DNA of 64,000 nt from an uncultured Clostridium sp. GTDB lineage: Bacteria > Bacillota > Clostridia > TANB77 > CAG-508. The first letter of the stretch is position 1. Each line of letters starts with the position of its first letter. Positions 14,581 through 52,044 of the stretch are shown here, one piece after another. A program made the position numbers and the translations under genes. The DNA is taken from NCBI GenBank assembly GCA_945946655.1, contig CAMEWM010000001.1:192365-256364 (forward strand), read 5' to 3'. Below the pieces are notes generated by a model. The model ran no database searches. It saw only the letters and a list, made by a program, of their open reading frames with translations, and was not told the DNA's origin.

Positions 14581-17500
14581 TTAGATAAACACTTCTATAT
14601 TGTAAATTTTTCCATTACTATCAAGTTTAACTTTATCGTCAGATATTTCCTCTCCATTGCATTTCAATTTAACATTTCTATTTATATTTTTTTCATTATT
14701 CTCTCCATTATTTATAACTTTAATATTATACATACTATTTCCATACTTATATTTTATTTCATAGCCTTTCCAATTAGATGGAATGTGTGGCTCTATTTTT
14801 AGATATCCTCGTTCTATATTCAAGCCAAGAATATATTTTATTCCTGCTATATACATCCAACTACTTGAGCCTGTATACCACGTCCATCCTCCACGTCCAG
14901 CTAGATTTCCTTGACCATATACATCTGCTGCGATAACATATGGTTCTACTTTATACTTACTGCATTCATCTTTAGTCCTTGCATGTTCTATTGGATTTAT
15001 CATTCTGAAGTTTTCATATGCTTTATCATTAAAATTTAATATAGCTTGTGCTATTATTGTCCAAGTTGCAGCATGTGTATATTGACCACCATTCTCTCTT
15101 GTTCCCGGCAAATACGATTTTATATAACCAGGTTCTAATTTACTTTTTTCAAATGGTGGATCTAATAATTTTATTATTCCAACATCTCTATCTATTAAAT
15201 GATTCTCTAAACTCTCCATTGCAATATATTTTTTATCATTATCTCCTGCACCTGATATAATTGACCAACTCTGAGATATACTATCGATTTTGCACTCTTC
15301 GTTTTGTAGACTACCTAGAATATCTCCTTCATCAGTAAAAGCTCTTTTATACCATCTACTATCCCATGCATCGTTATTTAGATTTTTTTTCAAAGTCTCT
15401 GTAATTTGCTTATACTTTTCTGCATGCAAATTGTCATTTTTATATTCACAAATCGGAATAAACTTATCCAATACTGCATACATAAAGAATCCTAGCCATA
15501 CACTTTCTCCTTTTCCTTGTATTCCAACATTATTAAATCCATCATTCCAGTCACCTGTACCTATTTTAGGAAGTCCATGCTCACCAAAGTTTAAAGATTT
15601 TTCTATAGCCTTTATACAGTGATTATATAAACTTTCTTCAAAATCTGAATCTCCATAGAAATCATATCTTTCATTTTGCTTATCTTCCAAAGGCGCACCT
15701 ATTTTGTAGGTTGTCTCTTCCTCCAATATACTATAATCTTCAGTAAAATTCACATAATCTGCTGTTACAAACGGTAACCATAAAAGATCATCCGATATTT
15801 TCGTTCGAATTCCTTTCTCTGTTTCTTCATGCCACCAGTGTTCCACATCGCCCTCTATAAATTGATGTCTACTACTCCTTAGTATTTGTTCCTTTGTCAT
15901 TTCTGGTACCATATATTTTGTTAACATACTATCCTGCAATTGATCTCTAAAACCATATGCACCTCCTGATTGGTAAAATCCTGTCTTAGCATATAGTCTT
16001 GAAGTAATAGTTTGATAAACAAGCCATCCATTCAATAGAATATTTGTTGATTCCATAGGAGTATTAACTTGTAAAGTGTTAATTATATCTTCCCAATATT
16101 TTTTTACATTTACATACTCTTTTCTGCAGTTACTTATATTGGAATATTTATAAGCAATATCCTGGCACTCTTCTTTATTTGAAGCATCACCTAAAGTTAG
16201 AATTACCTCTTTTGTTGAAAAAGCTTCGATAGTTATATTTATCGATATTGCAATTATACCATCTTCGCCAAAAGCATTCTCTCTATTTAGTTGCAATTGA
16301 TCGATTCCTGCTGGATTTTCTAAAGTTGAATCTTTAAGAAAAGAGGCTTTACTTCCTGTATAAGAATTTATTTTTTCACTACACCCTATAAATATTTGGT
16401 TGTTTTTTTGTTCATATCCTAAATTTTTCACAAGCATAATATTGGATGAATCATCAAATTCAAGCTGTAGGTACGAGTTAGTTTTTATTTCATCTTCACC
16501 TAATACGGGTTTAATATAATAAATTAATCTTAAGTTCTTTTTTTGAGGATTTTTATTCTCTAATGTTATCATATTTATTTTTACATTATCGTCTTTTGGT
16601 ACAAACACATCTACTGTTTGCTTTATTTTTGATGAACAATGAATGTATTTTGCATATCCGAAACCATATATTACATAATAGTTATTATCATCATGCATTG
16701 GATTAAATCCTAATGACCACTTTCTTCCTGTATCCATATCTTTTATATATATTATTTCTGATGGTGTATCACTAATTTGGTCATTTGACCAGGCAGTAAG
16801 TCTATCTAGTCTACTATTTTTATACCAAGTGTATCCTCCCATATTTTCTGTAGTAAGTGTTCCAAAATTTTTATTTGCAATTATATGACTCCAAACCGTA
16901 GGTAATTTATTATTTGTATTTACTTTTATATAATACTCTCTTCCATCTTTTGAGAATCCTCCATATTCATTAAAATATTTCAGGTTATTTATATCTATTA
17001 GTTCTTCTTTCTCCTCTATAACATCTAATATCATATTTTGTTTTGAATCACAAACAGTCTCTTTAATATTATCCATAGTCCTACTTTCAATATCTTCCAT
17101 TTGCAGTGCCAAAGAGCTATAATTTGCATTAATTACTAAATTTGCTCTTGTCTCTAATAACTTTTTATCTTGTTTTTCAACATTTTCTAAGCAGAATATC
17201 CCTCCCGGAATATTTAATAAATAAGCAATATTTCTATTCAGTATAGCTAACTGTATTGCATCTTTCACATAATTTTCATACGATTCGCTCTCTTCATTTA
17301 ATATTACTAAATCTACTTTTATATTTTTCACTCTAAAAAATTCATATGCACTTAATACTTCTTTTATAATATCTATATCATTTATATCTTTTATCTTTAC
17401 TAGTAATATAGGAAGGTCTCCTGATATTCCGTATTTCCAAAGTGCTGATACTGGAAAATTTTTATCTTTTATAGGACATTTCATTGAAACTTTTGGAGTA

Positions 17501-20500
17501 AATAGCAAATATGATAACATGTTTTGATAAATATCTATATCCTTACCTTTGATTCCTAGATATCTATTTTCGGCTTCACTTTTTGCTTTTAATAGTTCGA
17601 AAGTTCGTCTTATATTTTCATTATTCATAAACTTCACTAAATTTCTTACTACGATATCTTTTCCTTCACCAACAGAAATTATTAGATCTAGGAAAGCTGT
17701 TTCTTCAGGCTTAATGCTAATCGTTTTCTTGAGTGCTATAATTGGATCGATTGTATACCCTATTTTTTTACTAAATGGGATTGAATTTTCTACTTCTTTT
17801 GGCAATTTATAGTTACATCTTCCCCAAAACTTTTCTTTATCAATCTCAAATTCTAATTCTCCGAGTTCATTTGCTTGGGTATATAGACTTACTGCCATAT
17901 ACATATCTGTTTCTTCATTTGTATGAGCTTTTCTTTTTATCAATATAGCGTTAATCGCATCCATATACTCATATGACAAGAATAGATTATTAAAAGCTTT
18001 ATGAGCATAATCCTGCATTTTATTTGATAATATTGGTTCAAAAAATCCTGTAATTTCTAATATTTCATTTGTCGTTCCATTATTTTTCAATTCTAATCTG
18101 CGTATTTCGACTGCTTCATCAGTATCTACTATTGTTTTTGTGATAGTTTGTATATTCTCATCATTCCTTACTATTTTATCTACTTCTGGAGCAAAAACAA
18201 TATTATATTTATCTGGCTTACGTAAATTCTTGGCATACGTATTTGTCCATATATTTTTATTGCGTATATTTTTTATATAGAATTTTATACCTTGCTCTGC
18301 TTCATCTGTTTCTTTATATCTATTTATTTGAATATCCTTATATTTACTATATCCATTTCCATATTGATCCATAACAACAGTATATTTGTCATTTGCTATA
18401 ACATTTGAAACATTCATATAGTCATTTATCTTGGTATATGTTCTTTGAGTATAATCTTCATAATCTTGATATTTAATTTTTTCTATTTTTTCTTTTTCTT
18501 CTTTCGTAGTTATCATATTCTCCGGCATTTTTTCTTGCATAAGAATATCTACTGCTTCAATTTCCGGATTTTGTTTAAATCTTTTTTGTATTATATTATT
18601 GTTCATTAAATTATCTATTGATAGTAAAATTAGTCCTTGATGATGTGCCATATATGTCTTTACTGGAGCATAGCCATTCTTTGTCCTACCTGGTGTAAAA
18701 TCTATTGATTCATAAAATCCATACTTATCATACATACCTTCTGATTCCAAGATTTTTAAATTTTCTATCACTAGTTTTGGTTCTTGATTTATCGCTAAGA
18801 TGGATCCATATGATGATGTGACAATTTCATCTGATAAACCTCTTTTTAATCCTAACCATGGTATGCCAAAAGCTTTATATTGATAATTGTTATTTAAATC
18901 TTTTAAGTTAAATGCCGCTTCTGATATTCCCCATGGAATTCCTAATTTCTTACTATACTCCAGTTGACTCATTATCATAAACTTACAAGATTCATCTAAT
19001 ATACTTCCTGGGTATTGCTCTATATTTATGGTTGGCATTAAATATTCAAAAGATGTACCAGCCCAAGAAGCTAGTCCTTTATAATTATTAAGTGTCGTAA
19101 GGGTTCTGCTCAAATTATACCAGTGTTTCTCACTTACATCTTTTTTTGCGATTGCTATCAAACTTGTTTGTCTAGCTTCTGAAGCAAGCAAGTCATAATA
19201 TGAATCTGTTAATTTATTTTCTTCTATATTAAAACCAATAGAAAATAATCTATTCCCTGTATCATATAATTTTGAAAAATCCGTATTATTTATTATATTT
19301 ATAATTGATTCAATCATAAATTCTAACTTATTAATGATATCATCATTCTTCGAAACTATATCACTGTTATTTTTATCTTCACTTTTCAAATTTCTATATA
19401 TTTCATTATTTTCTGAATTACCATCTATTTCACATTGCTGGATTTCTTCTTTCTTTTTTATTAAAAATTGTTTTAATACATATAGGTACCCAATAAAATT
19501 TCCACTATCAACTGATGAAACATATCTAGGATTTAGTGGTTCTAAAGTTTCTATATTATACCAATTATATAAATGACCATTCCATTTTGGTAAATTATTA
19601 ATTGTATTGACCATTTTATATAATAAACAAATTGTATTATTAAAGTTCTCGTAGTTTAAATCATAACTTGCCATGACAGCAAGCAATGCCAGTCCTATAT
19701 TAGTTGATGATGTCCTCATTACTAATTTCGGTTTTCTATCTTCTTGATAATTATCGGGCGGTAAAAAATTATCTTTTGCAGTAAGATTTTCTTTAAAATA
19801 TAGCCATGTCTTATATCCTATGTTTAATAAATATTTTTTTTCATCTGCATTTATTTTATCTAGTGCATTCTCTATTTTATTCTTCTTACTAATTTTGCAC
19901 ATTATTATTGGAGCACATAACCAAGCTGCACTTATAGCTAATAATATTATTAGTATATTATTGCTTTTTAGTTGAACAAATTTATTAAATAGTGCAAATA
20001 ATATTCCTATTAATCCAACTATAGTGTTCGCCGACATATTTTTGTAATACGATATTATATCTGTTTTAGCAGCTTTTTCTGCTTCTTCCGAGGTCATCCA
20101 TTCTAATAAATGTTTTTTACTTTTTGTCATTCTATATATTGTTTTTATTTCTGCTTTTAACGTTATATACATTTTATCAGGTATCAATAATAAATCTAGT
20201 ATTGCTCTTAGAAAACTTGCCTTTATTCCATCAATAGTTTTTACGAACCTTTTAGTTTTTATATTTCCTTCTTTTCTTGTAATTATATTATTTACAACAT
20301 CTAAAATTGTTGGTATTATCACAGATACTATAGCAATTATAAATACCTCCCAGGGAATAAACGAAGTAGCAATACTTATAATCGTAAAAAATAATAATAA
20401 TGCAAATACTGCAACCTCTTGTTTACTTCTTACTATGTTACTAAATATCTTATATTTACTTAATAGCTTTAATGGATTCTTCTTTATTTCTCCTTTTCTA

Positions 20501-22851
20501 TTTTCTATTGTACTTTTCATCCAAGGTAGGATTTGATAATCTCCTCTAATCCATCTATATAGCCTTGTTCTAAAACTCATATAATTGCTTGGATACCCAT
20601 CCATTAATAATATATCAGAAGCTAGACCACATCTTAAATAATTGCCTTCCAACAAATCATGGCTTAAAACTGTATTTTCTTTAATTTCGTCATTAAGTAC
20701 TTTTGAAAATATATTTAAATCATATATTCCTTTTCCTGTAAAAATTCCCTCATCAAAATTATCTTGGTATAAATTTGAGATTACATTTGTATATGAATCT
20801 GTTCCTCCTTCTCCTGCATATATTTGCGTAAACACACTCTTTCTACTTTCTAATAATCCTATTCCAACTCTAGGTTGCATTAGCGCATGACCTGATATTA
20901 CTAAATCACCCTTTTCATTTAGTATCGGAGTATTTAATATATGTGCCATGGCTCCAACTAATTCAAGTCCAGATTTTAGCGTTAAATCAGTGTCTGAATC
21001 TAGTGTAATAATATATCTAATTTTATTAATTTCTATATCTTCTATTGTATTTATTCTAAATGGATTCTCTATATGTCCTAATATATATTCATTAAATTGA
21101 TTTAGTAGACCTCTTTTTCTTTCCCATCCCATATAGCATTCTTCATTTTCATTCCAAGTTCTTTTTCTATATATGAAATTAAATATATTACCATATTCCT
21201 CATTTAATTTTTTTGTTCTGCCAATTCCTTCTTTTATTATCTCTTCATCAAAATCTTCAACTTCTTTGCTTCCAGACGTGCAGTCTCCCAATAAGGTAAA
21301 ATATAAATTTTCACTCTTATTCGCAATATAATAAACTTCTAATTTTCTCATTAGTTCTCTTACTTTATCTTTACTCTTTAATATTGTCGGTATAACAATC
21401 ATTGTAGAGTACTCTTCTGGGATTCCATTTTGAAAATCTATCTTTGGAATCAATTTGGGCTTTACTGTTTTGCTTAAAATATATTGCACTATTTTCGATA
21501 CTATATTCTCCAATGGCAATAATGAGATTACAAATAATATTATCGCCATAATAACATTTACCCAAATTTGAATATTAACCTTTGCTATTGAGTAATAAAA
21601 ATTTATACATGTAACAGTACTAAGTATTAAAGATATACTCCATATTATTTCAATATAATATTTAACTTTCTCTTCATTTGACTTTATAGTAACTTTTCTA
21701 TCTAATAAACTATTAAGCAATTCCTCTTTTCCATCTGAAATTAGGTAGTATCCTATATGTTCTTTTTTTATATTACTAATTTCTCCATTTTGAATTTTTT
21801 CATATGAACATTTGCTTAACTCTAAACATTTCTTTGCAATATATATTTCTGATATTTTAGTTTTCTTTGATATTTCTTGTATAGTATTTCTATAATAAGA
21901 TTTTGTATCACTATCCATAATCTCATATTGCTTAGCTGGATCTCGTTTTAGAATATCTTCTACTCTATTAATCTTTTCAAAAATTTCTAAGAAGTTTACT
22001 CTTGACATATTCTTCAATGTCATTATACTGTTACCAATAGAGACTTTCTTTACCGCTATATCAAAGTGCTCCTTTTTTATAACTTCAGAAATATTATTTC
22101 CCGTTTTGGCAACTTCTTCCTCTAATACATTTAGATACGCATAGGCTTTGCTTCCATATTTTTTCAATCTATATGACATATATTCAATAAAAGCATTTTT
22201 CATTTGATTCGTTTCTATTAAAGTTATTTTATTTGATGGAAATACTTTTTTCTTCTTTTCTTCTCCAAAAAATCTACTTATAATATCCTCTACTTTATAT
22301 TTTTGCATTTGGGACATATATATTGTCTCGCATATCTCTCTTATATTCTCAATTAACGCTATTTGTATAAATATTCCTATGCTCCATATTTCATTCATGC
22401 TAAGAGTCTTTTTAGTCTGATAAGCTTGTAACATATTTTCTAAGTTCTCTGAATTTATTTTTCCATCAGTATAAGCTACCATCTCAGTCGCTAATACATA
22501 TACTCTTGCAAATCCTTTATATCTACCATTTGCTAATCCTAAGAATTCAGTATATTTTTTTAGTGTAAGCTCTTTACTTATATTTTTTACAATTTCCTCT
22601 ATTACATATAGATTATCTAATATCCACTCTCCAGCAGGATGAATAGGTATACCTTGCTTTATTTGGTCATTTAATAACCTGTATATTTCTTTTATTATCA
22701 AAAAGTTTTCTTTCAACCTCGGAATAGGATACGTGTCCTTATCCGATTTTTCAGTTAATATATGGTCAGAAGCAATTTTCTCCAAATAACTTTCTAATTG
22801 ATTCTTATCTAAAATTGCTCCTTTTATATTTAATTTTCTTTTTTCTTTCAA
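14581..22851 (-). CDS. cyclic beta-1,2-glucan synthase-like enzyme (GT84-GH144-like-GH94)
   Basis: 2756 residues, the size of NdvB/ChvB-type synthases. Order of parts: an N-terminal soluble region, two membrane helices (about 404-455), a GT84-type glycosyltransferase region with DSDTDLTLKSG near 620 and RLYRWIRGDYQ near 764, further membrane helices (about 807-850 and 937-977), a glycoamylase-like (GH144-like) domain near 1240-1405 (NYKGLASWAGTSFEYLMPTI, YGFYESIDFTPGR), and a GH94 phosphorylase-like end from about 1900 with GAYGFRDQLQD, EHWWHEETEKGIR and the catalytic-Asp motif GTGDWNDGFNN near 2436. In proteobacteria such enzymes initiate, extend, cut to size and close beta-1,2-glucan rings on the enzyme itself. 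The start is TTG (22849-22851); no in-frame Met lies near. The Shine-Dalgarno is inside a hairpin (see 22858-22902). I infer a linear or cyclic beta-1,2-glucan product; the product has not been shown. Confidence 0.88.
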   Translation of the reverse strand: MKEKRKLNIKGAILDKNQLESYLEKIASDHILTEKSDKDTYPIPRLKENFLIIKEIYRLLNDQIKQGIPIHPAGEWILDNLYVIEEIVKNISKELTLKKYTEFLGLANGRYKGFARVYVLATEMVAYTDGKINSENLENMLQAYQTKKTLSMNEIWSIGIFIQIALIENIREICETIYMSQMQKYKVEDIISRFFGEEKKKKVFPSNKITLIETNQMKNAFIEYMSYRLKKYGSKAYAYLNVLEEEVAKTGNNISEVIKKEHFDIAVKKVSIGNSIMTLKNMSRVNFLEIFEKINRVEDILKRDPAKQYEIMDSDTKSYYRNTIQEISKKTKISEIYIAKKCLELSKCSYEKIQNGEISNIKKEHIGYYLISDGKEELLNSLLDRKVTIKSNEEKVKYYIEIIWSISLILSTVTCINFYYSIAKVNIQIWVNVIMAIILFVISLLPLENIVSKIVQYILSKTVKPKLIPKIDFQNGIPEEYSTMIVIPTILKSKDKVRELMRKLEVYYIANKSENLYFTLLGDCTSGSKEVEDFDEEIIKEGIGRTKKLNEEYGNIFNFIYRKRTWNENEECYMGWERKRGLLNQFNEYILGHIENPFRINTIEDIEINKIRYIITLDSDTDLTLKSGLELVGAMAHILNTPILNEKGDLVISGHALMQPRVGIGLLESRKSVFTQIYAGEGGTDSYTNVISNLYQDNFDEGIFTGKGIYDLNIFSKVLNDEIKENTVLSHDLLEGNYLRCGLASDILLMDGYPSNYMSFRTRLYRWIRGDYQILPWMKSTIENRKGEIKKNPLKLLSKYKIFSNIVRSKQEVAVFALLLFFTIISIATSFIPWEVFIIAIVSVIIPTILDVVNNIITRKEGNIKTKRFVKTIDGIKASFLRAILDLLLIPDKMYITLKAEIKTIYRMTKSKKHLLEWMTSEEAEKAAKTDIISYYKNMSANTIVGLIGILFALFNKFVQLKSNNILIILLAISAAWLCAPIIMCKISKKNKIENALDKINADEKKYLLNIGYKTWLYFKENLTAKDNFLPPDNYQEDRKPKLVMRTSSTNIGLALLAVMASYDLNYENFNNTICLLYKMVNTINNLPKWNGHLYNWYNIETLEPLNPRYVSSVDSGNFIGYLYVLKQFLIKKKEEIQQCEIDGNSENNEIYRNLKSEDKNNSDIVSKNDDIINKLEFMIESIINIINNTDFSKLYDTGNRLFSIGFNIEENKLTDSYYDLLASEARQTSLIAIAKKDVSEKHWYNLSRTLTTLNNYKGLASWAGTSFEYLMPTINIEQYPGSILDESCKFMIMSQLEYSKKLGIPWGISEAAFNLKDLNNNYQYKAFGIPWLGLKRGLSDEIVTSSYGSILAINQEPKLVIENLKILESEGMYDKYGFYESIDFTPGRTKNGYAPVKTYMAHHQGLILLSIDNLMNNNIIQKRFKQNPEIEAVDILMQEKMPENMITTKEEKEKIEKIKYQDYEDYTQRTYTKINDYMNVSNVIANDKYTVVMDQYGNGYSKYKDIQINRYKETDEAEQGIKFYIKNIRNKNIWTNTYAKNLRKPDKYNIVFAPEVDKIVRNDENIQTITKTIVDTDEAVEIRRLELKNNGTTNEILEITGFFEPILSNKMQDYAHKAFNNLFLSYEYMDAINAILIKRKAHTNEETDMYMAVSLYTQANELGELEFEIDKEKFWGRCNYKLPKEVENSIPFSKKIGYTIDPIIALKKTISIKPEETAFLDLIISVGEGKDIVVRNLVKFMNNENIRRTFELLKAKSEAENRYLGIKGKDIDIYQNMLSYLLFTPKVSMKCPIKDKNFPVSALWKYGISGDLPILLVKIKDINDIDIIKEVLSAYEFFRVKNIKVDLVILNEESESYENYVKDAIQLAILNRNIAYLLNIPGGIFCLENVEKQDKKLLETRANLVINANYSSLALQMEDIESRTMDNIKETVCDSKQNMILDVIEEKEELIDINNLKYFNEYGGFSKDGREYYIKVNTNNKLPTVWSHIIANKNFGTLTTENMGGYTWYKNSRLDRLTAWSNDQISDTPSEIIYIKDMDTGRKWSLGFNPMHDDNNYYVIYGFGYAKYIHCSSKIKQTVDVFVPKDDNVKINMITLENKNPQKKNLRLIYYIKPVLGEDEIKTNSYLQLEFDDSSNIMLVKNLGYEQKNNQIFIGCSEKINSYTGSKASFLKDSTLENPAGIDQLQLNRENAFGEDGIIAISINITIEAFSTKEVILTLGDASNKEECQDIAYKYSNISNCRKEYVNVKKYWEDIINTLQVNTPMESTNILLNGWLVYQTITSRLYAKTGFYQSGGAYGFRDQLQDSMLTKYMVPEMTKEQILRSSRHQFIEGDVEHWWHEETEKGIRTKISDDLLWLPFVTADYVNFTEDYSILEEETTYKIGAPLEDKQNERYDFYGDSDFEESLYNHCIKAIEKSLNFGEHGLPKIGTGDWNDGFNNVGIQGKGESVWLGFFMYAVLDKFIPICEYKNDNLHAEKYKQITETLKKNLNNDAWDSRWYKRAFTDEGDILGSLQNEECKIDSISQSWSIISGAGDNDKKYIAMESLENHLIDRDVGIIKLLDPPFEKSKLEPGYIKSYLPGTRENGGQYTHAATWTIIAQAILNFNDKAYENFRMINPIEHARTKDECSKYKVEPYVIAADVYGQGNLAGRGGWTWYTGSSSWMYIAGIKYILGLNIERGYLKIEPHIPSNWKGYEIKYKYGNSMYNIKVINNGENNEKNINRNVKLKCNGEEISDDKVKLDSNGKIYNIEVFI

Positions 22852-22857
22852 AAAAAT

Positions 22858-22902
22858 CCACTCCTTGGAATATGTTATTCACATATTTTCTCCAAGAAGT
22901 GG
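22858..22902 (-). promoter_or_regulatory. hairpin with the glucan synthase Shine-Dalgarno in its 3' arm
   Basis: On the minus strand CCACTTCTTGGA (22891-22902) pairs with TCCAAGGAGTGG (22858-22869), 12 positions with one mismatch, extended by ATATG/CATAT inside (70-74 with 82-86). The 3' arm contains the AAGGAG ribosome site (22861-22866) and is followed by seven U's that run straight into the TTG start. The element has the look of an intrinsic terminator fused to the initiation region; it could both stop transcription and hide the ribosome site. Confidence 0.6.
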
Positions 22903-22942
22903 AAAAGTTATGCATATTGTAGCACATTGTGCTATTGATTTT

Positions 22943-23392
22943 TTAAATATTTGTATCTGTTGGATTTGTTGTTCCTGTTCCTACATATTGTGCAGAACCA
23001 AAACCTAAAATCATTTCAAATATTGGTGTTAAGAATATTAGTCCAATTATAAATCCTGTTGATTTTCCAAAAGCTTGTCCTAATTTTACCATAGGTAGAA
23101 TTGCCAATACTATTGATATTATCCATCCTACAACAGGAATCCATAATAATAAATACAATAGCAATAACCATGGTGATAATCCTACTATCTTAAATAATAT
23201 AACTAGATTATAAATAGGAATTAACGATTTCCATCCTTTTTCTCCTGCTTTTGTAAATATTCTCCATTGAGCTATAATTATCAATACATAGATAGCTATA
23301 AATACTATACTATATGTAGCCAATAAAGACACTAATGTAGCTATTGATGCAATTGAGCCAGTAGTTGGTGCACTATAAGATAAATACTCCAT
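22943..23392 (-). CDS. DUF5684 small membrane protein
   Basis: 149 residues with about four membrane helices. The family pattern is present: IIAQWRIFTKAGEKGWKSLIPIYNLVILFKIVG, then WLLLLYLLLWIPVVGWI and LGQAFGKSTGFIIGLIFLTPIF. Members are often mislabelled signal peptidase I, but no catalytic Ser/Lys pair is present here. The function of the family is unknown. ATG at 23392 has a GGAAGGGGG ribosome site. It lies between cwlD and the glucan synthase gene in the same direction. Confidence 0.75.
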   Translation of the reverse strand: MEYLSYSAPTTGSIASIATLVSLLATYSIVFIAIYVLIIIAQWRIFTKAGEKGWKSLIPIYNLVILFKIVGLSPWLLLLYLLLWIPVVGWIISIVLAILPMVKLGQAFGKSTGFIIGLIFLTPIFEMILGFGSAQYVGTGTTNPTDTNI

Positions 23393-23424
23393 TTTTTATC
23401 CCCCTTCCTTTGTTTTCTAAAATT

Positions 23425-23453
23425 AGAATATCATAATACTAATTTTTTTTCAA
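23425..23453 (-). promoter_or_regulatory. possible promoter of the DUF5684 gene
   Basis: Minus strand: TTGAAA (23448-23453), 17-base spacer, TATTCT (23425-23430). The same stretch contains a weak AAAATTAG/CTAATTTT stem (23419-23446) that might instead end the cwlD transcript. Confidence 0.4.
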
Positions 23454-23473
23454 CTTCTTTACAAAATTTGATT

Positions 23474-24196
23474 TTATTCTACAAAATAATCCATTACTCC
23501 ATTATATATCCCCCAAGCCAATTTATTCTGATAACTATTATCCTCAAGCTGTTCTCTTTCTTCAGGATTAGATAAAAATCCACATTCTACTATTGATATA
23601 GGGATTTCTACATGCTTTATTATATATACATTGTTGATTTTTAGTGGGACTCTCTTATTCTCCTTTTGGATCGCTTCATTTAAATTATTTTGAATACATG
23701 TGGCTAGTCTCTTACCTTCTTCGCTACCATCTTTAAAGAATGTTTGCCAACCATAATATTCACTCTGAGGAATTTTATTTAAATGTATACTTACAAAAAT
23801 ATCTGCCGATGAATTATTTCCAATTTTTACTCTATTTTTTATATCTGAATTTTTTTTATCTCTCAAAGTTTTTTTGTCTAAATTATATATGGCATTTTCA
23901 TCAGACCTTGTTAAAATGACTGTTGCTCCGCTTTGTTCTAATAAGTTCTGAAGTTTTAATGCAATTTTTAAATTGATATCCGCTTCCATAACACCATCAC
24001 TTGCTACTGCTCCACCATCCTCACCCCCATGACCTGCATCCACTACAATAGTTTTAGAAGTAGCTGGAGTAGCCATTGTAGCTATTATGTTATTATTTTT
24101 TAAATTATTATTAGCAGTTCTTATAGTGAACATTCCAACAGGTAAAAGAATAGCCATCAATATAAATATTATTCTTTTTTTATTAAAAATAAGCAT
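23474..24196 (-). CDS. cwlD: N-acetylmuramoyl-L-alanine amidase, CwlD type
   Basis: A zinc amidase that cuts the bond between muramic acid and L-Ala. In Bacillus CwlD works with PdaA to make muramic-delta-lactam in the spore cortex. 240 residues: an N-terminal signal-anchor (IIFILMAILLPVGMFTI), then the amidase_3 domain with zinc ligands in VVDAGHGGEDGGAV, an acidic EADINLKIA, the histidine of FVSIHLNKIP, and the catalytic glutamate in ISIVECGFLSNPEE. The length and single-domain layout match CwlD rather than repeat-bearing autolysins. It has its own promoter and a hairpin covering the ribosome site. Confidence 0.85.
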   Translation of the reverse strand: MLIFNKKRIIFILMAILLPVGMFTIRTANNNLKNNNIIATMATPATSKTIVVDAGHGGEDGGAVASDGVMEADINLKIALKLQNLLEQSGATVILTRSDENAIYNLDKKTLRDKKNSDIKNRVKIGNNSSADIFVSIHLNKIPQSEYYGWQTFFKDGSEEGKRLATCIQNNLNEAIQKENKRVPLKINNVYIIKHVEIPISIVECGFLSNPEEREQLEDNSYQNKLAWGIYNGVMDYFVE

Positions 24197-24203
24197 AAAA
24201 ATC

Positions 24204-24226
24204 CTCCCATATTATTTATATGGGAG
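24204..24226 (-). promoter_or_regulatory. hairpin with the cwlD Shine-Dalgarno in its 3' arm
   Basis: Minus strand: CTCCCATA (24219-24226) pairs with TATGGGAG (24204-24211), 8 bp, 7-base loop. The 3' arm holds the GGGAGGA ribosome site and is followed by TTTTT and the ATG at 24196, so it resembles an intrinsic terminator overlapping the initiation region. There is no plus-strand gene here that would need a terminator, so the element belongs to the cwlD leader. Confidence 0.6.
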
Positions 24227-24319
24227 ACTTTTATTTATATTCCATATTTTCATTAATCTTCTTCTATGTCATTTTATATATGCCTTGAGTTCATTAGAAA
24301 TAGCAAAATATATAATTTT

Positions 24320-24347
24320 ATTATATCAAAATGTTGGTATTCGTCAA
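24320..24347 (-). promoter_or_regulatory. sigma-A type promoter of cwlD
   Basis: Minus strand: TTGACG (24342-24347), 16-base spacer, TATAAT (24320-24325), giving a leader of about 115 bases. A sigma-A type promoter is notable, because in Bacillus cwlD is transcribed by forespore or mother-cell factors. Confidence 0.65.
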
Positions 24348-24402
24348 GTAGTTATATTTAGTATAAAATATAACTTTCGATATTACTATTTTAATAAAGT
24401 TA

Positions 24403-24435
24403 CCCCAGAGCTAAATATTAACATTAGCTCTGGGG
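24403..24435. terminator. intrinsic terminator of rpoBC
   Basis: A perfect 12-bp stem, CCCCAGAGCTAA (24403-24414) and TTAGCTCTGGGG (24424-24435), 9-base loop, the most GC-rich stem of the window. It follows the rpoC stop at 24444 on the minus strand. The U-run on that side is interrupted, while a run CTCTATTTTTAT follows on the plus side. Confidence 0.8.
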
Positions 24436-24443
24436 CTCTATTT

Positions 24444-27400
24444 TTATTCAGTTACTGTTTCAGCACTTTCATTTACCTCTGATTCTTTCTCAGCTTTTTC
24501 TTGTTGTTCTGTATTAATTTTTATTTGCTTATATCTCTTCATTCCAGTTCCTGCTGGGATTAACTTACCAATAATAACATTTTCTTTTAATCCTATTAAC
24601 TCATCAGTCTTTCCTTTAATAGCAGCTTCTGTTAATACTCTTGTAGTCTCTTGGAATGATGCTGCTGATAAGAAGCTATCTGTTGCAAGTGATGCTTTTG
24701 TGATTCCAAGTAATACACGTTTACCTGTTGCAGGTCTTAATCCTTTCTCTTCAGCCTCTTTATTCTTATCTTCGAATTCATACATATCAACAAGTGATCC
24801 CGCAAATAAATCTGTATCTCCATTATCTTCAACTCTTACTTTCTTTAGCATTTGTCTTGCGATAAGCTCTATATGTTTGTCATTTATATCAACACCTTGG
24901 TTTCTATAAACTTTTTGAACTTCTTGTATAATGTATTCAAATACTCCTTGTGGTCCATTGATAGCTAATACTTCTGCTGGGTTCTTAGAACCTTCTGTAA
25001 TTTGATCTCCTGCTTCTAAGATGTCACCATCTTTAACTTTTAATTTAGAACCAAATGGTATAACATAAGTCTTGCTATCATCTTTAGATGTAACAATAAC
25101 CTCTTTTCTCTTCTTTTCATCTTTTATTGATACTTTTCCTGCTATCTCTGTAATAATAGCAACACCCTTTGGTTTACGAGCTTCGAAAAGTTCCTCAACT
25201 CTAGGAAGACCTTGTGTAATATCAGCAACACCAGCAACACCACCAGAGTGTATAGTTCTCATTGTAAGCTGTGTACCAGGCTCACCTATAGATTGTGCAG
25301 CAATTATTCCAACAGTATCTCCTATATCAACTTCTTTTCTACTTGCTAATCCCATACCATAGCATTTTGCACAAACACCATGTTTTATTCTACAACCATA
25401 TACACTACGAACTTCTACACGGTCGATTCCTGCAGCAACAATTTTATCTGCTAAATCTTCTGTAATAATAGTATTTGTATCAACTATAATTTCTTTAGTG
25501 TTTGGATCTACTATATCATGTAATGGATATCTACCAAGTAATCTTTCTTGTATTTTTTCTATAACTTGATTTCCGTCTTTAATGTCATATACTTCAAGAC
25601 CCTCTGTTGATCCACAATCATCTTCTCTTACTATTATATCTTGTGAAACATCAACCAATCTTCTTGTTAAATATCCAGAATCTGCTGTTCTTAAAGCTGT
25701 ATCTGAAAGTCCTTTACGTGCACCGTGTGCAGAAATAAAGTACTCTAAGGCGTCTAATCCCTCTCTGAATGATGATTTAATTGGTATCTCAACTGTTTTA
25801 CCAGTTGTACTAGCCATAAGTCCACGCATACCAGCAATTTGTTTTAATTGGTCTAAGTTACCTCTAGCTCCAGAATCAGACATCATGAACATTGGATTTT
25901 CTTTGCTAAAGTTATTCTTCATTGCTTCTTTAACATCGTCTGTAGCTTTCTCCCATACTTTTATTACTTGATTATATCTTTCATCATCAGTAATCAAACC
26001 ACGTTTATATTGTTTTAATATGTTATCAACATCATCTTGCGCTTTAGCTATTATTGTTTTCTTCTCTGGTGGGACTTTAACATCATCAATTGATACTGTT
26101 ACAGCTCCTAATGTTGAATATTTATAACCTGTTGCCTTAATATAATCTAGAAGTTCAGCTGTTCTACTTAATCCATGTACAGATATACATTTACCTATTA
26201 TTTTCCCTAAATTCTTCTTTGATACAACTCCATTGATTTCATATTCGAACTCATTCTCAGGCTTGCTTCTATCAACAAATCCTAAATCCTGAGGGATTCC
26301 TGAGTTAAATATAATTTTACCTGGTGTCGTTGCAACTTTTGCATGTCTTTCTACACCATCAACAACTTTTGATCTTCTAACCCATATCTTTGAGTGCATT
26401 GTTACATCGTTATTTGCTAACGACATAATTGCTTCTTCTGGAGATGAGAAGTATGTACCTTCACCTTTTTCTCCATCAACATCCATTGTTAAGAAATAAC
26501 TTCCTAGAATCATATCCTGTGTAGGAGTCGTTACTGGTTTACCATCTTGTGGTTTTAATAAGTTGTTTTCAGAAAGCATTAAATATCTTGCTTCTGCCTG
26601 AGCTTCTGGTGATAATGGTAGGTGAATAGCCATCTGATCACCATCAAAGTCAGCATTAAATGCTGTACAAACTAATGGGTGTAATTTTATCGCTCTTCCT
26701 TCAACTAAAACCGGTTCGAATGCTTGGATACCTAGTCTATGTAGTGTAGGAGCACGGTTTAGAAGTACAGGGTGGTCTTTTATAACATCTTCTAATATAT
26801 CCCATACTTCTGGACGTAATCTTTCTACCATTCTCTTTGCATTCTTTATGTTGTGTGCTATTCCACGGCTAACTAATTCTTTCATAACAAATGGCTTAAA
26901 CAATTCCACTGCCATTTCTTTTGGAACTCCACATTGGTAAATCTTAAGTTCTGGTCCAACAACTATAACTGAACGTCCTGAATAATCAACACGTTTTCCT
27001 AATAAATTTTGTCTAAATCTTCCTTGTTTACCTTTTAACATATCTGATAATGATTTAAGTGGTCTATTTCCAGCTCCTGTAACAGGTCTTCCACGTCTTC
27101 CATTATCTATTAGAGCATCTACTGATTCTTGAAGCATTCTTTTTTCATTTCTAACTATAATTTCTGGAGCTCCGAGTTCAAGTAATCTTTTTAATCTGTT
27201 ATTTCTATTTATAACTCTTCTATATAAATCATTTAAATCAGATGTAGCAAATCTTCCACCATCTAATTGAACCATAGGTCTTAAATCTGGTGGTATAACT
27301 GGTACAACTTGCATGATCATCCACTCAGGTCTATTTTCAGACAATCTAAATGATTCTACTGTGTCCAATCTTTTTACTAGTTTTGCTTTCTTTTGCTCAC

Positions 27401-27998
27401 TAGCCTTTTCTAGTTCTTTCTTTAATTTTGCTGATAATTTTTCTACATCTATTTCAGATAATAAAGTCCTAATTGGCTCTGCTCCCATTTCAGCCTTAAA
27501 TGAATCTTTTCCAAACTTTTCCTGAGCCTCAACATATTCTTTCTCAGATAATATTTGGGCTTTTGATAAAGTTGTAGATCCCTTATCTGTTACTATGTAT
27601 GATGCAAAATATATAACTTTCTCTAAAGCTTTTGGAGATACATCTAACATTAATGCTATTCTACTTGGTATTCCCTTAAAATACCAAATATGAGCTACTG
27701 GGGCAGCAAGCTCTATGTGCCCCATTCTCTCTCTTCTTACTTTAGATTTTGTAACTTCAACACCACATCTATCGCAAACTATACCTTTATATCTTACTCT
27801 TTTGTATTTACCACAATGGCATTCCCAGTCTTTTGTTGGTCCAAAAATTCTTTCACAGAATAGACCATCTTTCTCTGGTTTTAATGTTCTATAATTAATA
27901 GTCTCTGGTTTCTTTACTTCTCCATGTGACCATTCTCTTATTTTCTCATCAGATGCTATGCCAATTTTCATTTTATCAAAGTTTTCTAACTCATCCAC
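24444..27998 (-). CDS. rpoC: DNA-directed RNA polymerase beta' subunit
   Basis: 1184 residues, normal for Bacillota. The N-terminal zinc ribbon [19 protein letters not shown], the catalytic magnesium loop [15 protein letters not shown] near residue 451, the bridge helix/trigger loop region ([30 protein letters not shown]) and the second zinc site ([11 protein letters not shown]) are all intact. The start is GTG (27996-27998), read [13 protein letters not shown], with an AAGGGGG ribosome site. It follows rpoB by 33 bases in the usual order. The last 25 residues are a polar Glu/Lys tail. Confidence 0.98.
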
Positions 27999-28031
27999 TA
28001 TTTTTTGCCCCCTTGGATTATATTTTTTTGA

Positions 28032-31000
28032 TTATTCATCATCGTCATCATTAAAATCTTCATCTTCTAAGATGTTTGAATCATCATCTAGTATGATATC
28101 ATCGTCTTCATCATCTAGGTCTTCAAATAATTTATCGTCTCCATCTTCAGAATCTTCGTCATCTGATGATTCTTCTGTATATCCATCTGATAATTCGTTT
28201 TCATCTATAACACTATCTTCATTAAATGATTTATTCTCTATATTACTAAAGCTTGTAGAGTCTTCAATATCTTCTTTTAATTCTATTTCCTTGTCATCAT
28301 GAGTATACAATCTAATGTCTAATCCTAATGCCTCTAATTCTTTTACTAGAACTTTAAATCCTTCTGGCACACCTGGTTCTGGAATATTTTCACCTTTAAC
28401 AATAGCTTCATATGTCTTAACACGTCCTACAACATCATCTGATTTAACAGTTAACATTTCTTGTAGTGAATATGCTGCGCCATATGCTTCTAGTGCCCAA
28501 ACTTCCATTTCACCAAAACGTTGTCCACCAAATTGTGCTTTACCACCTAGTGGTTGTTGTGTAACTAATGAGTATGGTCCTGTTGAACGAGCATGTATTT
28601 TATCATCAACCAAGTGATGTAATTTCATCATATACATAACACCAACTGTTATTGGCTTAATAAATTTTTCTCCAGTTCTACCGTCATACAAATCAGTTTT
28701 ACCATCTCTACGTAATCCTGCTTCTTCTAATAAGTCTTCTATTTCGTAGTCTTTTGCACCATCAAATACTGGTGTTGCAACTTTCCATCCTAATGCACGA
28801 GCAGCCATTCCTAAATGAACTTCAAGAACCTGTCCTAAGTTCATACGAGAAGGAATACCCATTGGGTTTAGTACTATATCTACTGGAGTACCATCTGGTA
28901 AGAATGGCATATCTTCTTCTGGTAATATTCTTGAAATAACACCTTTGTTACCATGACGTCCAGCCATTTTATCACCAACTGATATTTTTCTCTTTGTAGC
29001 TATATAGCATCTAATTACTTGGTTTACTCCAGGAGCTAATTCTTCTGAATTTTCTCTAGTAAATATTTTTATATCTACTATTGTTCCAGCTTCTCCATGA
29101 GGTACACGAAGTGAAGTATCTCTTACTTCTCTTGATTTTTCTCCAAATATAGCACGAAGTAGTCTTTCTTCTGCTGTTAGCTCTGTTTCTCCTTTTGGAG
29201 TAACCTTACCAACTAATATATCTCCAGGTCTTACTTCTGCACCAATTCTTATGATACCATTTTCATCAAGATCTTTTAATACATCATCACCAACATTTGG
29301 TATATCTCTTGTAATTTCCTCTGGTCCTAATTTTGTATCACGACATTCACAATCATATTCTTCAATATGAATTGATGTATATACATCTTCTTTTACTAGT
29401 CTTTCACTAATTAAAACAGCATCTTCATAGTTGTAACCTTCCCATGTAGAAAATGCAATAAGTACGTTTTTACCTAGTGCCATTTCACCATTTTGAGTAG
29501 AAGGTCCATCAGCTAAAATATCTCCTGCTTTAACAACTTCTCCTCTTTGAACAACAGGTCTTTGGTTAATACATGTTCCACCATTTGTTCTCTTAAATTT
29601 GCGTAGTTTATATACATCTACTTCATTCTTTTTATTTCTTACTTTAATCTCGTCTGCTGTTACTTTCTCTACGATTCCATCATTATTTGCTGTTACTGTA
29701 ATTTCAGAATCACGAGCAGCTTTGTATTCCATACCTGTTCCAACTATTGGAGCTTCTGGAATTAAAAGTGGAACAGCTTGTCTTTGCATGTTAGATCCCA
29801 TTAGAGAACGCTTAACGTCATCATGCTCCAAGAAAGGAATCATGGCAGCGGCAACAGAAACTAATTGTTTTGGAGATACATCTACGTAGTCTACTTGACT
29901 TGCAGGCACCTCTGTAATTTCTTCTTTATGCCTAACTTTTATTGTTTTATTTATAAATTTGCCATCTTTATCCACTGGCTCTGAAGCTTGCGCTATTATG
30001 TATTTGTCTTCTTCATCTGCTGGCATATATTCTACTATGTCTGTTAGCTTTCCTGTCTCTTTATCTACTTTTCTGTATGGAGTTTCTACAAATCCATATT
30101 CATCTATCATTGCAAATGATGAAAGTGCAGATATAAGTCCTATGTTTGGTCCTTCTGGAGATTCAACTGGGCAAAGTCTTCCATAGTGAGTATAGTGAAT
30201 ATCACGAACTTCAAATCCAGCTCTTTCTCTTGAAAGTCCTCCAGGTCCTAATGCTGAAATTCTTCTTTTATGAGTAAGCTCTGATAATGGATTTGTTTGA
30301 TCCATAAATTGTGATAATTGAGAGCTTCCAAAAAATTCTCTTATTGAAGATGTTATAGGCTTTGTATTTATTAATGTTTGTGGAGTTACAGAATCTAAGT
30401 CTTGAATTGTCATTCTTTCACGAACAACTCTTTCTAATCTTGTTAAGCCAATTCTAAATTGATTTTGTAACAGTTCTCCAACACATCTAATACGTCTATT
30501 TCCTAGATGATCTATGTCATCTACATTTCCAATACCATAATCTAAGTTTAACAAATAACTTATTGATGCTACCATATCCTCCGTTGTTATCGTTAAAGGT
30601 ACTAGCTCATCATGTCTTTCTTTTAATACATCATGTAATTTTTCATCAGGTGTAGTATCCATTATAGATTTTAATACATTATAATTTACACCTTCTTTAA
30701 AATGTAAGTCACTTAAATCCACATTTGGTAACATTTTGTGGATATTTACAACTCCATTTCCTATTATTCTTACTTTTGTATCATTTACATTTACATCAAC
30801 AATATTTATTCCAGAATCTTGAATAGCTTCTGCCATTTCTTCTGTAATTTTAGCACCTTTCTCGGCTAAAACTTCTCCTGTTGATGGATCTATTATATCA
30901 TCATATGCAACTTGTCCCGTAATTCTTGTTGCAAGCTTTAATTTTTTGTTAAATTTATATCTTCCCACTTTAGCTAAGTCATATCTTCTGTTATCGAAGA

Positions 31001-31775
31001 ATAAACCATCGAATAAGTTTCTAGCAGCATCTGCTGTAGGAAGTTCCCCTGGTCTTAATTTCTTATATATTTCTATTATTGCTTCATCTTGTGTCTTTAT
31101 TGGATCTTTATCAAGTGTTGCTTTAATCTTTGGATCATTTGCAAATAAGTCTAATATTTGATCATCTGTTGTGAATCCAATACTTCTTAATAATGACGTA
31201 ACTGGCAACTTTCTTGTTCTATCTACTCTTACATAGAAAATATCATTACCATCTGTTTCATATTCTAGCCATGCACCTCTTATTGGCATAACAGTAGATG
31301 TATAGATTCTCTTACCTGTCTTATCGTAGTCTTGTGCATAATAACAAGATGGAGAACGAACTAATTGACTTACAATTACTCTTTCTGCTCCATTAATAAT
31401 AAATGTTGCACTATCTGTCATTACAGGAAAATCTCCTAAATAAATTTCTTGCTCCTTAATTTCTCCTGTTTCTTTGTTAATTAATCTTACTTTTACGTGT
31501 AGTCTTGTAGAATAAGTTGCGTCTCTTTCTTTAGCTTCTTCCATTGTGTACTTTGTCTTATCTTCCATGTGATAATCCAAGAATTCTAACACTAGATTTC
31601 CAGAGTAATCAACTATAGGCGAAATATCCCTTAATACTTCACCTAAACCTTCCTCTATAAACCAATTGTAGGAATCTTTTTGCACTTGGATTAAGTTAGG
31701 CATTTCTATAAAATCGCCTATCTTAGAAAAAGTTTTTCTTGTGCATTTTTCGTGTTTTACTTCCTTTAGATTCAA
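28032..31775 (-). CDS. rpoB: DNA-directed RNA polymerase beta subunit with a long acidic C-terminal tail
   Basis: 1247 residues. The rifampicin-binding region ([33 protein letters not shown]) near residue 491 has sensitive-type residues; [24 protein letters not shown] and the C-terminal [17 protein letters not shown] are intact. After the normal end (around [15 protein letters not shown]) the protein runs on for about 80 residues (28032-28274), very rich in Asp and Glu (for example [13 protein letters not shown] and [12 protein letters not shown]). Bacillus RpoB has a shorter acidic tail at this site. The start is TTG (31773-31775) with GAGGTGAG upstream. The ribosomal genes rplJ and rplL, commonly placed just upstream, are not there. 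Confidence 0.98.
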
Positions 31776-50961: not shown

Positions 50962-52011
50962 TCAGTTTTTACTATTTTTTGCAATACTATTGGCTTTTTT
51001 TAGAATACTTACAATCTGAATTATTCCAATTATGCCGAATGCTGGATATAATACACTCACTAAATTTCCAAAGCCTACATATGAAATAGGAATTTCCAAT
51101 ATACAAATAATTAACGCTATTTTTTTATATTTACTTTTATCTTTAATATTTTCTAGTACTCCATATCCAGATGAGATAGCAGAAGTTAAAATTGCAGTAA
51201 TTATTGCAATAGAATACATAATCTTTTCTATAGGATGGCATTCGTTTAATATCTCCAAAATTGGCATCTCTATATTACTCACATTTATTGTACATAATGT
51301 AAGCATTTGGTATATTGCTATAATAAGAACAAGGATAACACATCCAGATACTATTGTTATAATCTTTAAAGATTTTTTATTATCTATATTTAAAGCAAGT
51401 GATATAAGTATTGGAATTAATGTTATACTATTGTAACTTGTATATAAAATAGAATCTAATATAGCTTTTCCTGCATTTCTCGTACTTGTATTAATGTTAC
51501 TATTTAATATATTTGTCATCGGGTAATTTTTAATACTTATAATAACTATTATCACAATCATTATTGGCACTACTATCAAATTCAATTTAACTATTCCATC
51601 AATATTTTTTATAAGTAAAAAATATATGATAGCTGCATTAATTATAGCTGTAGCAATGATTGGTACTTTAAATTCTTGTTTAAAAAAAGTACAAAAACCT
51701 GCACACATTATTAAAAAAGAAACTATTAAGAATATATTTATAATATTTTTTAATAATATCGTAATTTTCTGATTATTTGTTATTTGTTCTACAAATTCAT
51801 TATTATTTGTTACTTTGTATTTTTTCACTATTAATATAGTACTATATATAATACTGGCTGTTAGCACTGATGAAATAATAGCGCCTAATAAACCGTTCTT
51901 TCCATACTGTGCAAAAAAAATGTAAATTTCTTTTCCAGAAGCAAATCCCGCTCCTATTAAGGTACCAATAATAACTGCTATTATTTTTATAATATTTGAT
52001 ATAAACTTCAT
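50962..52011 (-). CDS. YkvI-like amino-acid permease family protein
   Basis: 349 residues with about ten membrane helices. The first reads IIGTLIGAGFASGKEIYIFF, the glycine-rich unwound-helix signature of APC/LeuT-fold transporters, in the form seen in YkvI and BrnQ relatives. The substrate is unknown; a small neutral or branched amino acid is only a guess from the family. The ATG (52009-52011) sits directly against a long hairpin that hides the ribosome site, so expression may be controlled. Confidence 0.75.
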   Translation of the reverse strand: MKFISNIIKIIAVIIGTLIGAGFASGKEIYIFFAQYGKNGLLGAIISSVLTASIIYSTILIVKKYKVTNNNEFVEQITNNQKITILLKNIINIFLIVSFLIMCAGFCTFFKQEFKVPIIATAIINAAIIYFLLIKNIDGIVKLNLIVVPIMIVIIVIISIKNYPMTNILNSNINTSTRNAGKAILDSILYTSYNSITLIPILISLALNIDNKKSLKIITIVSGCVILVLIIAIYQMLTLCTINVSNIEMPILEILNECHPIEKIMYSIAIITAILTSAISSGYGVLENIKDKSKYKKIALIICILEIPISYVGFGNLVSVLYPAFGIIGIIQIVSILKKANSIAKNSKN

Positions 52012-52044
52012 AAAGCCCCCTCATAATATTTATGAGAGAGCTTT
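52012..52044 (-). promoter_or_regulatory. 15-bp hairpin covering the ykvI-like gene's Shine-Dalgarno
   Basis: Minus strand: AAAGCTCTCTCATAA (52030-52044) pairs with TTATGAGGGGGCTTT (52012-52026) over all 15 positions with two G-U pairs and a 3-base loop, ending one base before the ATG. The GAGGGGG ribosome site is in the 3' arm. It lies 13 bases after the gldG-like stop, so it may also act as that operon's terminator, although its U-run is only CTTT. Confidence 0.65.

Follow-up and report, generated by a model that had tools for sequence, protein, structure and literature searches.

Why should the ribosome-binding site of a gene be built into the arm of a terminator-like hairpin? This question is raised by a 64,000-nucleotide stretch of DNA from an uncultured Clostridium sp. 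(here called the window), in which the hairpin before a giant glucan synthase gene contains the gene's Shine-Dalgarno (SD) sequence and is followed by a run of U's reaching into the TTG start codon. We consider it likely that the element is an insulator, that is, a sporulation promoter nested inside an SD-hiding, terminator-like hairpin, with RNA made from the gene's own promoter being spared.

The features discussed here are collected in Table 1. The 12-position stem of the glucan synthase leader, with the SD in its 3' arm, the seven U's, and the TTG start, was found as given in the initial annotation; the inner extension of the stem also exists, but it comprises 6 bp rather than 5 and carries a one-sided 4-nt bulge. 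This leader folds at −25.0 kcal/mol (z = −5.8), and none of 200 shuffled sequences was equally stable. The same was true of the leaders of cwlD (−17.8 kcal/mol, z = −4.7; 0/200 shuffles) and of a YkvI-like gene (−20.1 kcal/mol, z = −6.4; 0/200 shuffles), for which the same architecture had been claimed. The SD-burying stem is indeed present at both genes, each of which is in the genome's top nine (see below), but the U-tail is not shared by the YkvI-like leader: its U-run is only 3 nt long (CUUUAUG), which would make it a poor terminator. A stable stem with a U-run immediately after it was found at the glucan synthase and cwlD hairpins.

Table 1. Positions of the hairpins, promoter elements, and genes considered in this analysis (window numbering, or contig:position elsewhere in the genome)
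Feature	Position	Strand	Details
Glucan synthase hairpin	22858..22902	−	5' arm 22902-22891, inner stem, 3' arm 22869-22858; expected only in RNA begun upstream of the promoter
SD (AAGGAG) of glucan synthase gene	22861..22866	−	In hairpin 3' arm, 9 nt before TTG start; from sequence
Seven-U run, terminator-like tail into glucan synthase start codon	22850..22856	−	From sequence, plus U-run association over 230 leaders
Glucan synthase gene, GH94/glucoamylase-type	14581..22851	−	2756 aa, TTG start; Pfam PF17167, PF06165, PF10091
Glucan synthase predicted −35, GCATA	22909..22913	−	Sigma F/G-type; spacing peak in ortholog leaders
Glucan synthase promoter spacer	22894..22908	−	15 nt; contains most of anti-SD arm (CCACTTCTT, 22902-22894)
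Glucan synthase predicted −10, GGAGAAAATA	22884..22893	−	Position-specific matrix from 23 ortholog leaders
DUF5684 gene	22943..23392	−	PF18936; co-directional, upstream of glucan synthase; presumed read-through source
cwlD hairpin	24203..24227	−	SD GGAGG in 3' arm, then AUUUUU-AUG; z −4.7
cwlD, spore cortex amidase	23474..24196	−	TIGR02883, 238.9 bits (cut-off 221.55)
cwlD predicted −35, GAATA	24238..24242	−	GNATA-N15/16-CAT[AT] in 13/28 cwlD leaders (~0.1 expected)
cwlD predicted −10, CATATAAAT	24214..24222	−	Within hairpin 5' arm and loop
YkvI-like gene hairpin	52016..52041	−	SD GAGGGGG in 3' arm; predicted −10 CATAAATAT (52034-52026) in 5' arm
YkvI-like membrane protein gene	50962..52011	−	Name from the initial annotation; no Pfam or NCBIfam match
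gpr	C3:78588		TIGR01441, 372 bits; among strong SD-hiding cases
spoVT	C25:10118		TIGR02851; among strong SD-hiding cases
sleB	C4:6977		TIGR02869; just under 10 kcal/mol group
M23 peptidase, weakly SpoIIQ-like	C12:17325		Just under 10 kcal/mol group
sigG	C21:17381		TTG start, frameshifted in assembly; just under 10 kcal/mol group

Promoter motifs were found inside these hairpins. The predicted glucan synthase promoter in the window is GCATA-N15-GGAGAAAATA, of the sigma F/G type, and the SD pairs with its spacer with a probability of 1.00 (leader L094). Among same-family orthologs, GNATA-N14/15-GG..A occurred in 44 of 58 glucan synthase leaders (about 0.5 expected) and in 14 of 21 sleB leaders, and GNATA-N15/16-CAT[AT] occurred in 13/28 cwlD leaders and 6/19 YkvI-like leaders. 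Spacing peaked sharply at 14 to 15 for the GG type and at 15 to 16 for the CATA type, and a strict GG-type motif was present in 33/58 glucan synthase leaders compared to 4 of 1,160 shuffled sequences. Sigma F and sigma G promoters carry G.ATA and GG..A.A.T, and sigma E promoters carry ATA and CATA. By sequence, the motifs of glucan synthase and sleB resemble sigma F/G promoters, and those of cwlD and the YkvI-like gene resemble sigma E promoters; no clear −35 was seen upstream of the YkvI-like gene in the window copy. The glucan synthase promoter had the top score of its own genome (25.8), with this leader belonging to the training set of the matrix. The GG-type matrix was too unspecific to find a regulon by itself, giving 39 matches at score 9 in the genome and 38 in shuffled sequence. 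A 7-bp palindrome (GTAGCACATTGTGCTAT) lies directly upstream of the glucan synthase −35 box (22919-22935), with T's after it on the plus strand.

The pairing between SD and spacer was assessed by the SD-opening cost, the free energy required to free the SD. Of the 37 leaders in which a promoter was detected and the opening cost reached 6 kcal/mol or more, 36 had the −35/−10 spacer as the main partner of the SD, and the promoter call in the lone exception (L143) is probably spurious. Shuffling the bases of the spacer alone lowered the opening cost (Wilcoxon P = 2.4 × 10^−9 for 75 leaders; P = 2.5 × 10^−5 for glucan synthase). Since a conserved sporulation-type promoter lies within the 5' half of the hairpin, RNA begun there should lack the anti-SD arm. 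When native RNA was modeled as starting 6 nt past the −10 box, the opening cost fell from ∼11 to ∼1 to 2 kcal/mol, and moving the start 3 nt in either direction made little difference. The predicted start site of glucan synthase is at ∼22876 to 22878, inside the hairpin loop. The SD of the window copy is buried in upstream-derived RNA, with an opening cost of 13.7 kcal/mol in the read-through RNA versus a predicted 1.6 kcal/mol in the native RNA, and, judged from the promoter motif and predicted start site, its own-promoter RNA would be without the 5' arm. That native RNA, as predicted, does not fold significantly (−5.8 kcal/mol, z = −1.0), compared to z = −6.1 for the longer RNA. For cwlD, the opening cost was 13.7 kcal/mol in read-through RNA and ∼2 kcal/mol in predicted native RNA.

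The insulator would work as follows. The anti-SD arm appears to be encoded mostly in the −35/−10 spacer, so that polymerase arriving from the upstream gene would copy the spacer, the RNA would fold, and the U-run would favor termination. Read-through RNA that escaped termination would have its ribosome site buried and would be silenced. RNA from the gene's own promoter (predicted to be of the sigma F/G type for glucan synthase and of the CATA type, probably sigma E, for cwlD and the YkvI-like gene) would begin past the anti-SD arm, and its SD would be free for translation. The earlier suggestion was that one element could end incoming transcription, hide the ribosome site, or switch between the two. 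For read-through RNA, the combination of both effects fits the data; a switch within the gene's own mRNA is not supported, the promoter being inside the 5' half.

U-runs and neighboring genes were examined next to the hairpins. Among 230 leaders, at least four consecutive U's were found between SD and start in 78 of the 86 with a hairpin and in 44 of the remaining 144 (odds ratio, 22; P = 2 × 10^−20), an association that may partly reflect U's adding pairs with A-rich upstream sequence. Hairpins were stronger close downstream of a co-directional gene (pooled P = 0.015; cwlD, P = 0.02), an effect that was not significant for the other genes tested singly. A shorter intergenic gap went with a stronger hairpin (Spearman −0.35, P = 1 × 10^−4), and this correlation was found again when a larger collection of gpr loci, taken from named uncultured gut Clostridia, was analyzed (Spearman −0.43, P = 3 × 10^−4), with some genomes common to both sets. 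In the window, rpoB, rpoC, cwlD, the DUF5684 gene, and the glucan synthase gene form a co-directional run (14581-31775); the glucan synthase gene has cwlD as its neighbor in several further genera as well, an arrangement suggestive of involvement of the giant enzyme in sporulation.

The U-run, co-directional, and gap effects fit insulation from read-through and also plain termination of the upstream gene. If the hairpins were simply intrinsic terminators of upstream genes, the overlap with the SD would be a by-product of short intergenic gaps; the U-runs after the stems, the greater strength of hairpins with an upstream stop codon within 120 nt, and the small, gene-dense genome are all in keeping with this. 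However, overlap caused by compaction would be expected at genes of every kind, yet sporulation genes are numerous among the strongest cases. Plain termination also leaves unaccounted for the location of the 5' arm in a promoter spacer in 36/37 detected cases, as well as the YkvI-like element, which combines a strong stem with a U3 tail only. We regard this explanation as unlikely. More doubtful still is a regulatory switch carried by the native mRNA itself (a riboswitch, a thermometer, or a protein-bound leader), with the SD exposed in response to a signal. Stable conserved stems do cover the SD, and a smaller hairpin in native Bacillus subtilis sigG mRNA cuts translation 2- to 4-fold (PMC5942855), but with the promoter within the 5' half, the native RNA could not form the stem (−5.8 kcal/mol, z = −1.0). 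In addition, no Rfam family reached threshold at the element (within the window, matches at the gathering threshold comprised two tRNAs only and no known riboswitch class), and the stem sequence follows the SD type while the promoter boxes stay constant. A switch of this kind is therefore very improbable.

The extent of the insulator-like architecture was assessed over the whole genome (1.33 Mb, 38 contigs, 27% G+C), of which ∼1.26 Mb was readable; a 65-kb contig (C5) reads only N and was left out. Two of the three window elements were missed by a basic stem search in which the choice of start was fixed, and the SD-opening cost, computed for 947 starts, was used instead. The SD was buried by at least 10 kcal/mol at 9 of 947 starts compared to 0 of 2,841 shuffled sequences, and the nine include the glucan synthase, cwlD, and YkvI-like leaders as well as those of gpr and spoVT. 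Together with the 0/200 shuffles for each window leader, this count bears out the initial argument against chance. The description of the three as unrelated genes was wrong, in that both cwlD and ykvI belong to the sporulation genes of B. subtilis, and gpr, sleB, and sigG share the device. B. subtilis cwlD is sigma E controlled, and ykvI, located close to a SpoIIID-bound site, shows differential expression in SpoIIID experiments (PMC517825). The device of sigG is less clean than those of gpr and sleB, with the hairpin overlapping the −10. Of the genome's nine strongest hairpins, four had neither a detected promoter nor a spore-specific annotation, and high scorers without a spore role were a TIGR04086 membrane protein, an RsiV/PdaC-like protein, a short peroxiredoxin fragment, and a 119-aa orphan. 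Genes of the sigE and sigK types scored above NCBIfam cut-offs, and a sigF-like protein matched SigF models best but below their cut-offs.

Several individual loci in the genome are described here in their own right. In this assembly, the sigG gene is split by a frameshift (C21:17381-17704; L065). The strong SD-hiding fold before spoVT (L069) is without a U-run, and its 5' arm seems to precede any promoter, so that a different mode of action is possible. A near-symmetrical hairpin at C18:2732-2782 (L062) presents an SD plus ATG on both strands, and one stem could serve two divergent genes.

Conservation of the hairpins was examined in relatives. The YkvI-like hairpin had an opening cost of at least 8 kcal/mol in 15 of 19 ortholog leaders. 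The glucan synthase hairpin is not universal (at least 8 kcal/mol in only 16 of 58 leaders), and many forespore-type promoters are without a hairpin. In a swap test, the SD half of each leader was joined to the upstream halves of orthologs (203 leaders dereplicated at 70% identity, which are not fully independent). Swapping the upstream half lowered pairing (pooled P = 3 × 10^−6; cwlD, P = 0.002; YkvI-like, P = 0.002; sleB, P = 0.02), and the test was not significant for glucan synthase (P = 0.16) or gpr (P = 0.06 to 0.09) alone. In a 12-row glucan synthase alignment, 86.7% of cells paired, compared to 50 to 56% in slid versions. Only three pairs had changed on both sides in these 12 leaders, a count reached by 85 of 500 shuffles; pair counting on the MAFFT alignment is weak because the 5' arms of some rows were shifted, and the swap and spacer-shuffle tests were used in its place. 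Thus, for the covariation that the initial annotation had named as a check, the pooled evidence is strong and that for the window's own element only modest. An example of compensating change is CCACT/AGTGG in the window versus CCTCT/AGAGG in L099. The many genera without a hairpin might suggest that the pairing arose by chance in an AT-rich genome or as a consequence of promoter sequence, as might the absence of hairpins from 29 gpr leaders of other orders, but the shuffle counts (9/947 versus 0/2,841) and the spacer-shuffle and swap tests contradict this, and we give it almost no credence.

In eight glucan synthase leaders (L101, L105, L111, L114, L117, L123, L190, and L200), the SD is mostly free. 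The same eight leaders contain CTAATTTCAA, which overlaps and extends just past the −10 box and is complementary to the start codon region TTGAAATTAG. The CTAATTTCAA partner is mostly upstream of the predicted start site and may therefore be a second route to the same lock.

For gpr, opening costs of at least 8 kcal/mol were found in 12/30 leaders in the family, 21/74 in named uncultured gut Clostridia, and 5/16 in other families of the order. None of the 29 gpr leaders from other orders of the class had a hairpin (mean opening cost, 2.3 kcal/mol, versus 2.5 in shuffles). As far as this one gene shows, the device looks confined to, or much enriched in, one order. Start sites were not found for most cwlD leaders in other families of the order. 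We lean toward a wider reading, held with less assurance than the insulator itself, in which anti-SD sequence in sporulation-promoter spacers is a general and repeatedly evolved rule in one order of uncultured gut Clostridia, making translation of both forespore- and mother-cell-type genes depend on where the RNA starts.

Promoter spacers are usually regarded as sequence of little meaning. If the insulator reading is correct, promoter, terminator, and translational lock share one stretch of DNA, and gene-dense spore formers could in this way silence the cell-wall-cutting enzymes CwlD and SleB and the GPR protease in growing cells despite read-through, the source of which would be the rpoBC operon in the case of cwlD. 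It would also provide a sequence signature by which to find sporulation genes in genomes without a cultured member, and it would suggest that the giant glucan synthase gene is a forespore gene.

The principle is known already. What appears new is that a set of sporulation genes uses it, that the anti-SD sits within the promoter spacer, and that the hairpin is joined to a terminator-like tail; the comparison covers openly licensed literature only, so that an earlier description of the wider pattern may have been missed. For B. subtilis sigG (spoIIIG), a large hairpin was proposed to block translation of RNA reading through from the spoIIG promoter, and this hairpin cannot form in RNA from the sigG promoter (Masuda 1988 and Sun 1991, as described in PMC5942855). 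As here, a sporulation gene lies downstream of a co-directional gene, and the hairpin is possible only in read-through RNA. That account describes one gene, whereas here cwlD, the glucan synthase gene, the YkvI-like gene, gpr, and sleB are also involved, the anti-SD is mostly in the −35/−10 spacer, and the U-run extends to the start codon. In phage T4, the long early RNAs of gene e and I-TevI hide the ribosome site, and RNA from the late promoter is without the 5' strand of the stem and is well translated (PMC3014915). The likeness to gene e is that the ribosome site is hidden in read-through RNA and free in own-promoter RNA; the differences are that the promoters are phage late promoters rather than sporulation ones and that the account given in PMC3014915 describes no terminator-like U-run. 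The uup RNA (RF03060) also has a short leader hairpin with an SD-like 3' arm. It matched one relative's leader (L116) over its full length, scoring 25.0 bits against a gathering threshold of 36.8, and it had no match in the window copy. Finally, the elements are like intrinsic (Rho-independent) terminators in having a stem and then a U-run just past a gene; unlike in such terminators, the 3' arm here doubles as the SD of the next gene, and the 5' arm overlaps its promoter.
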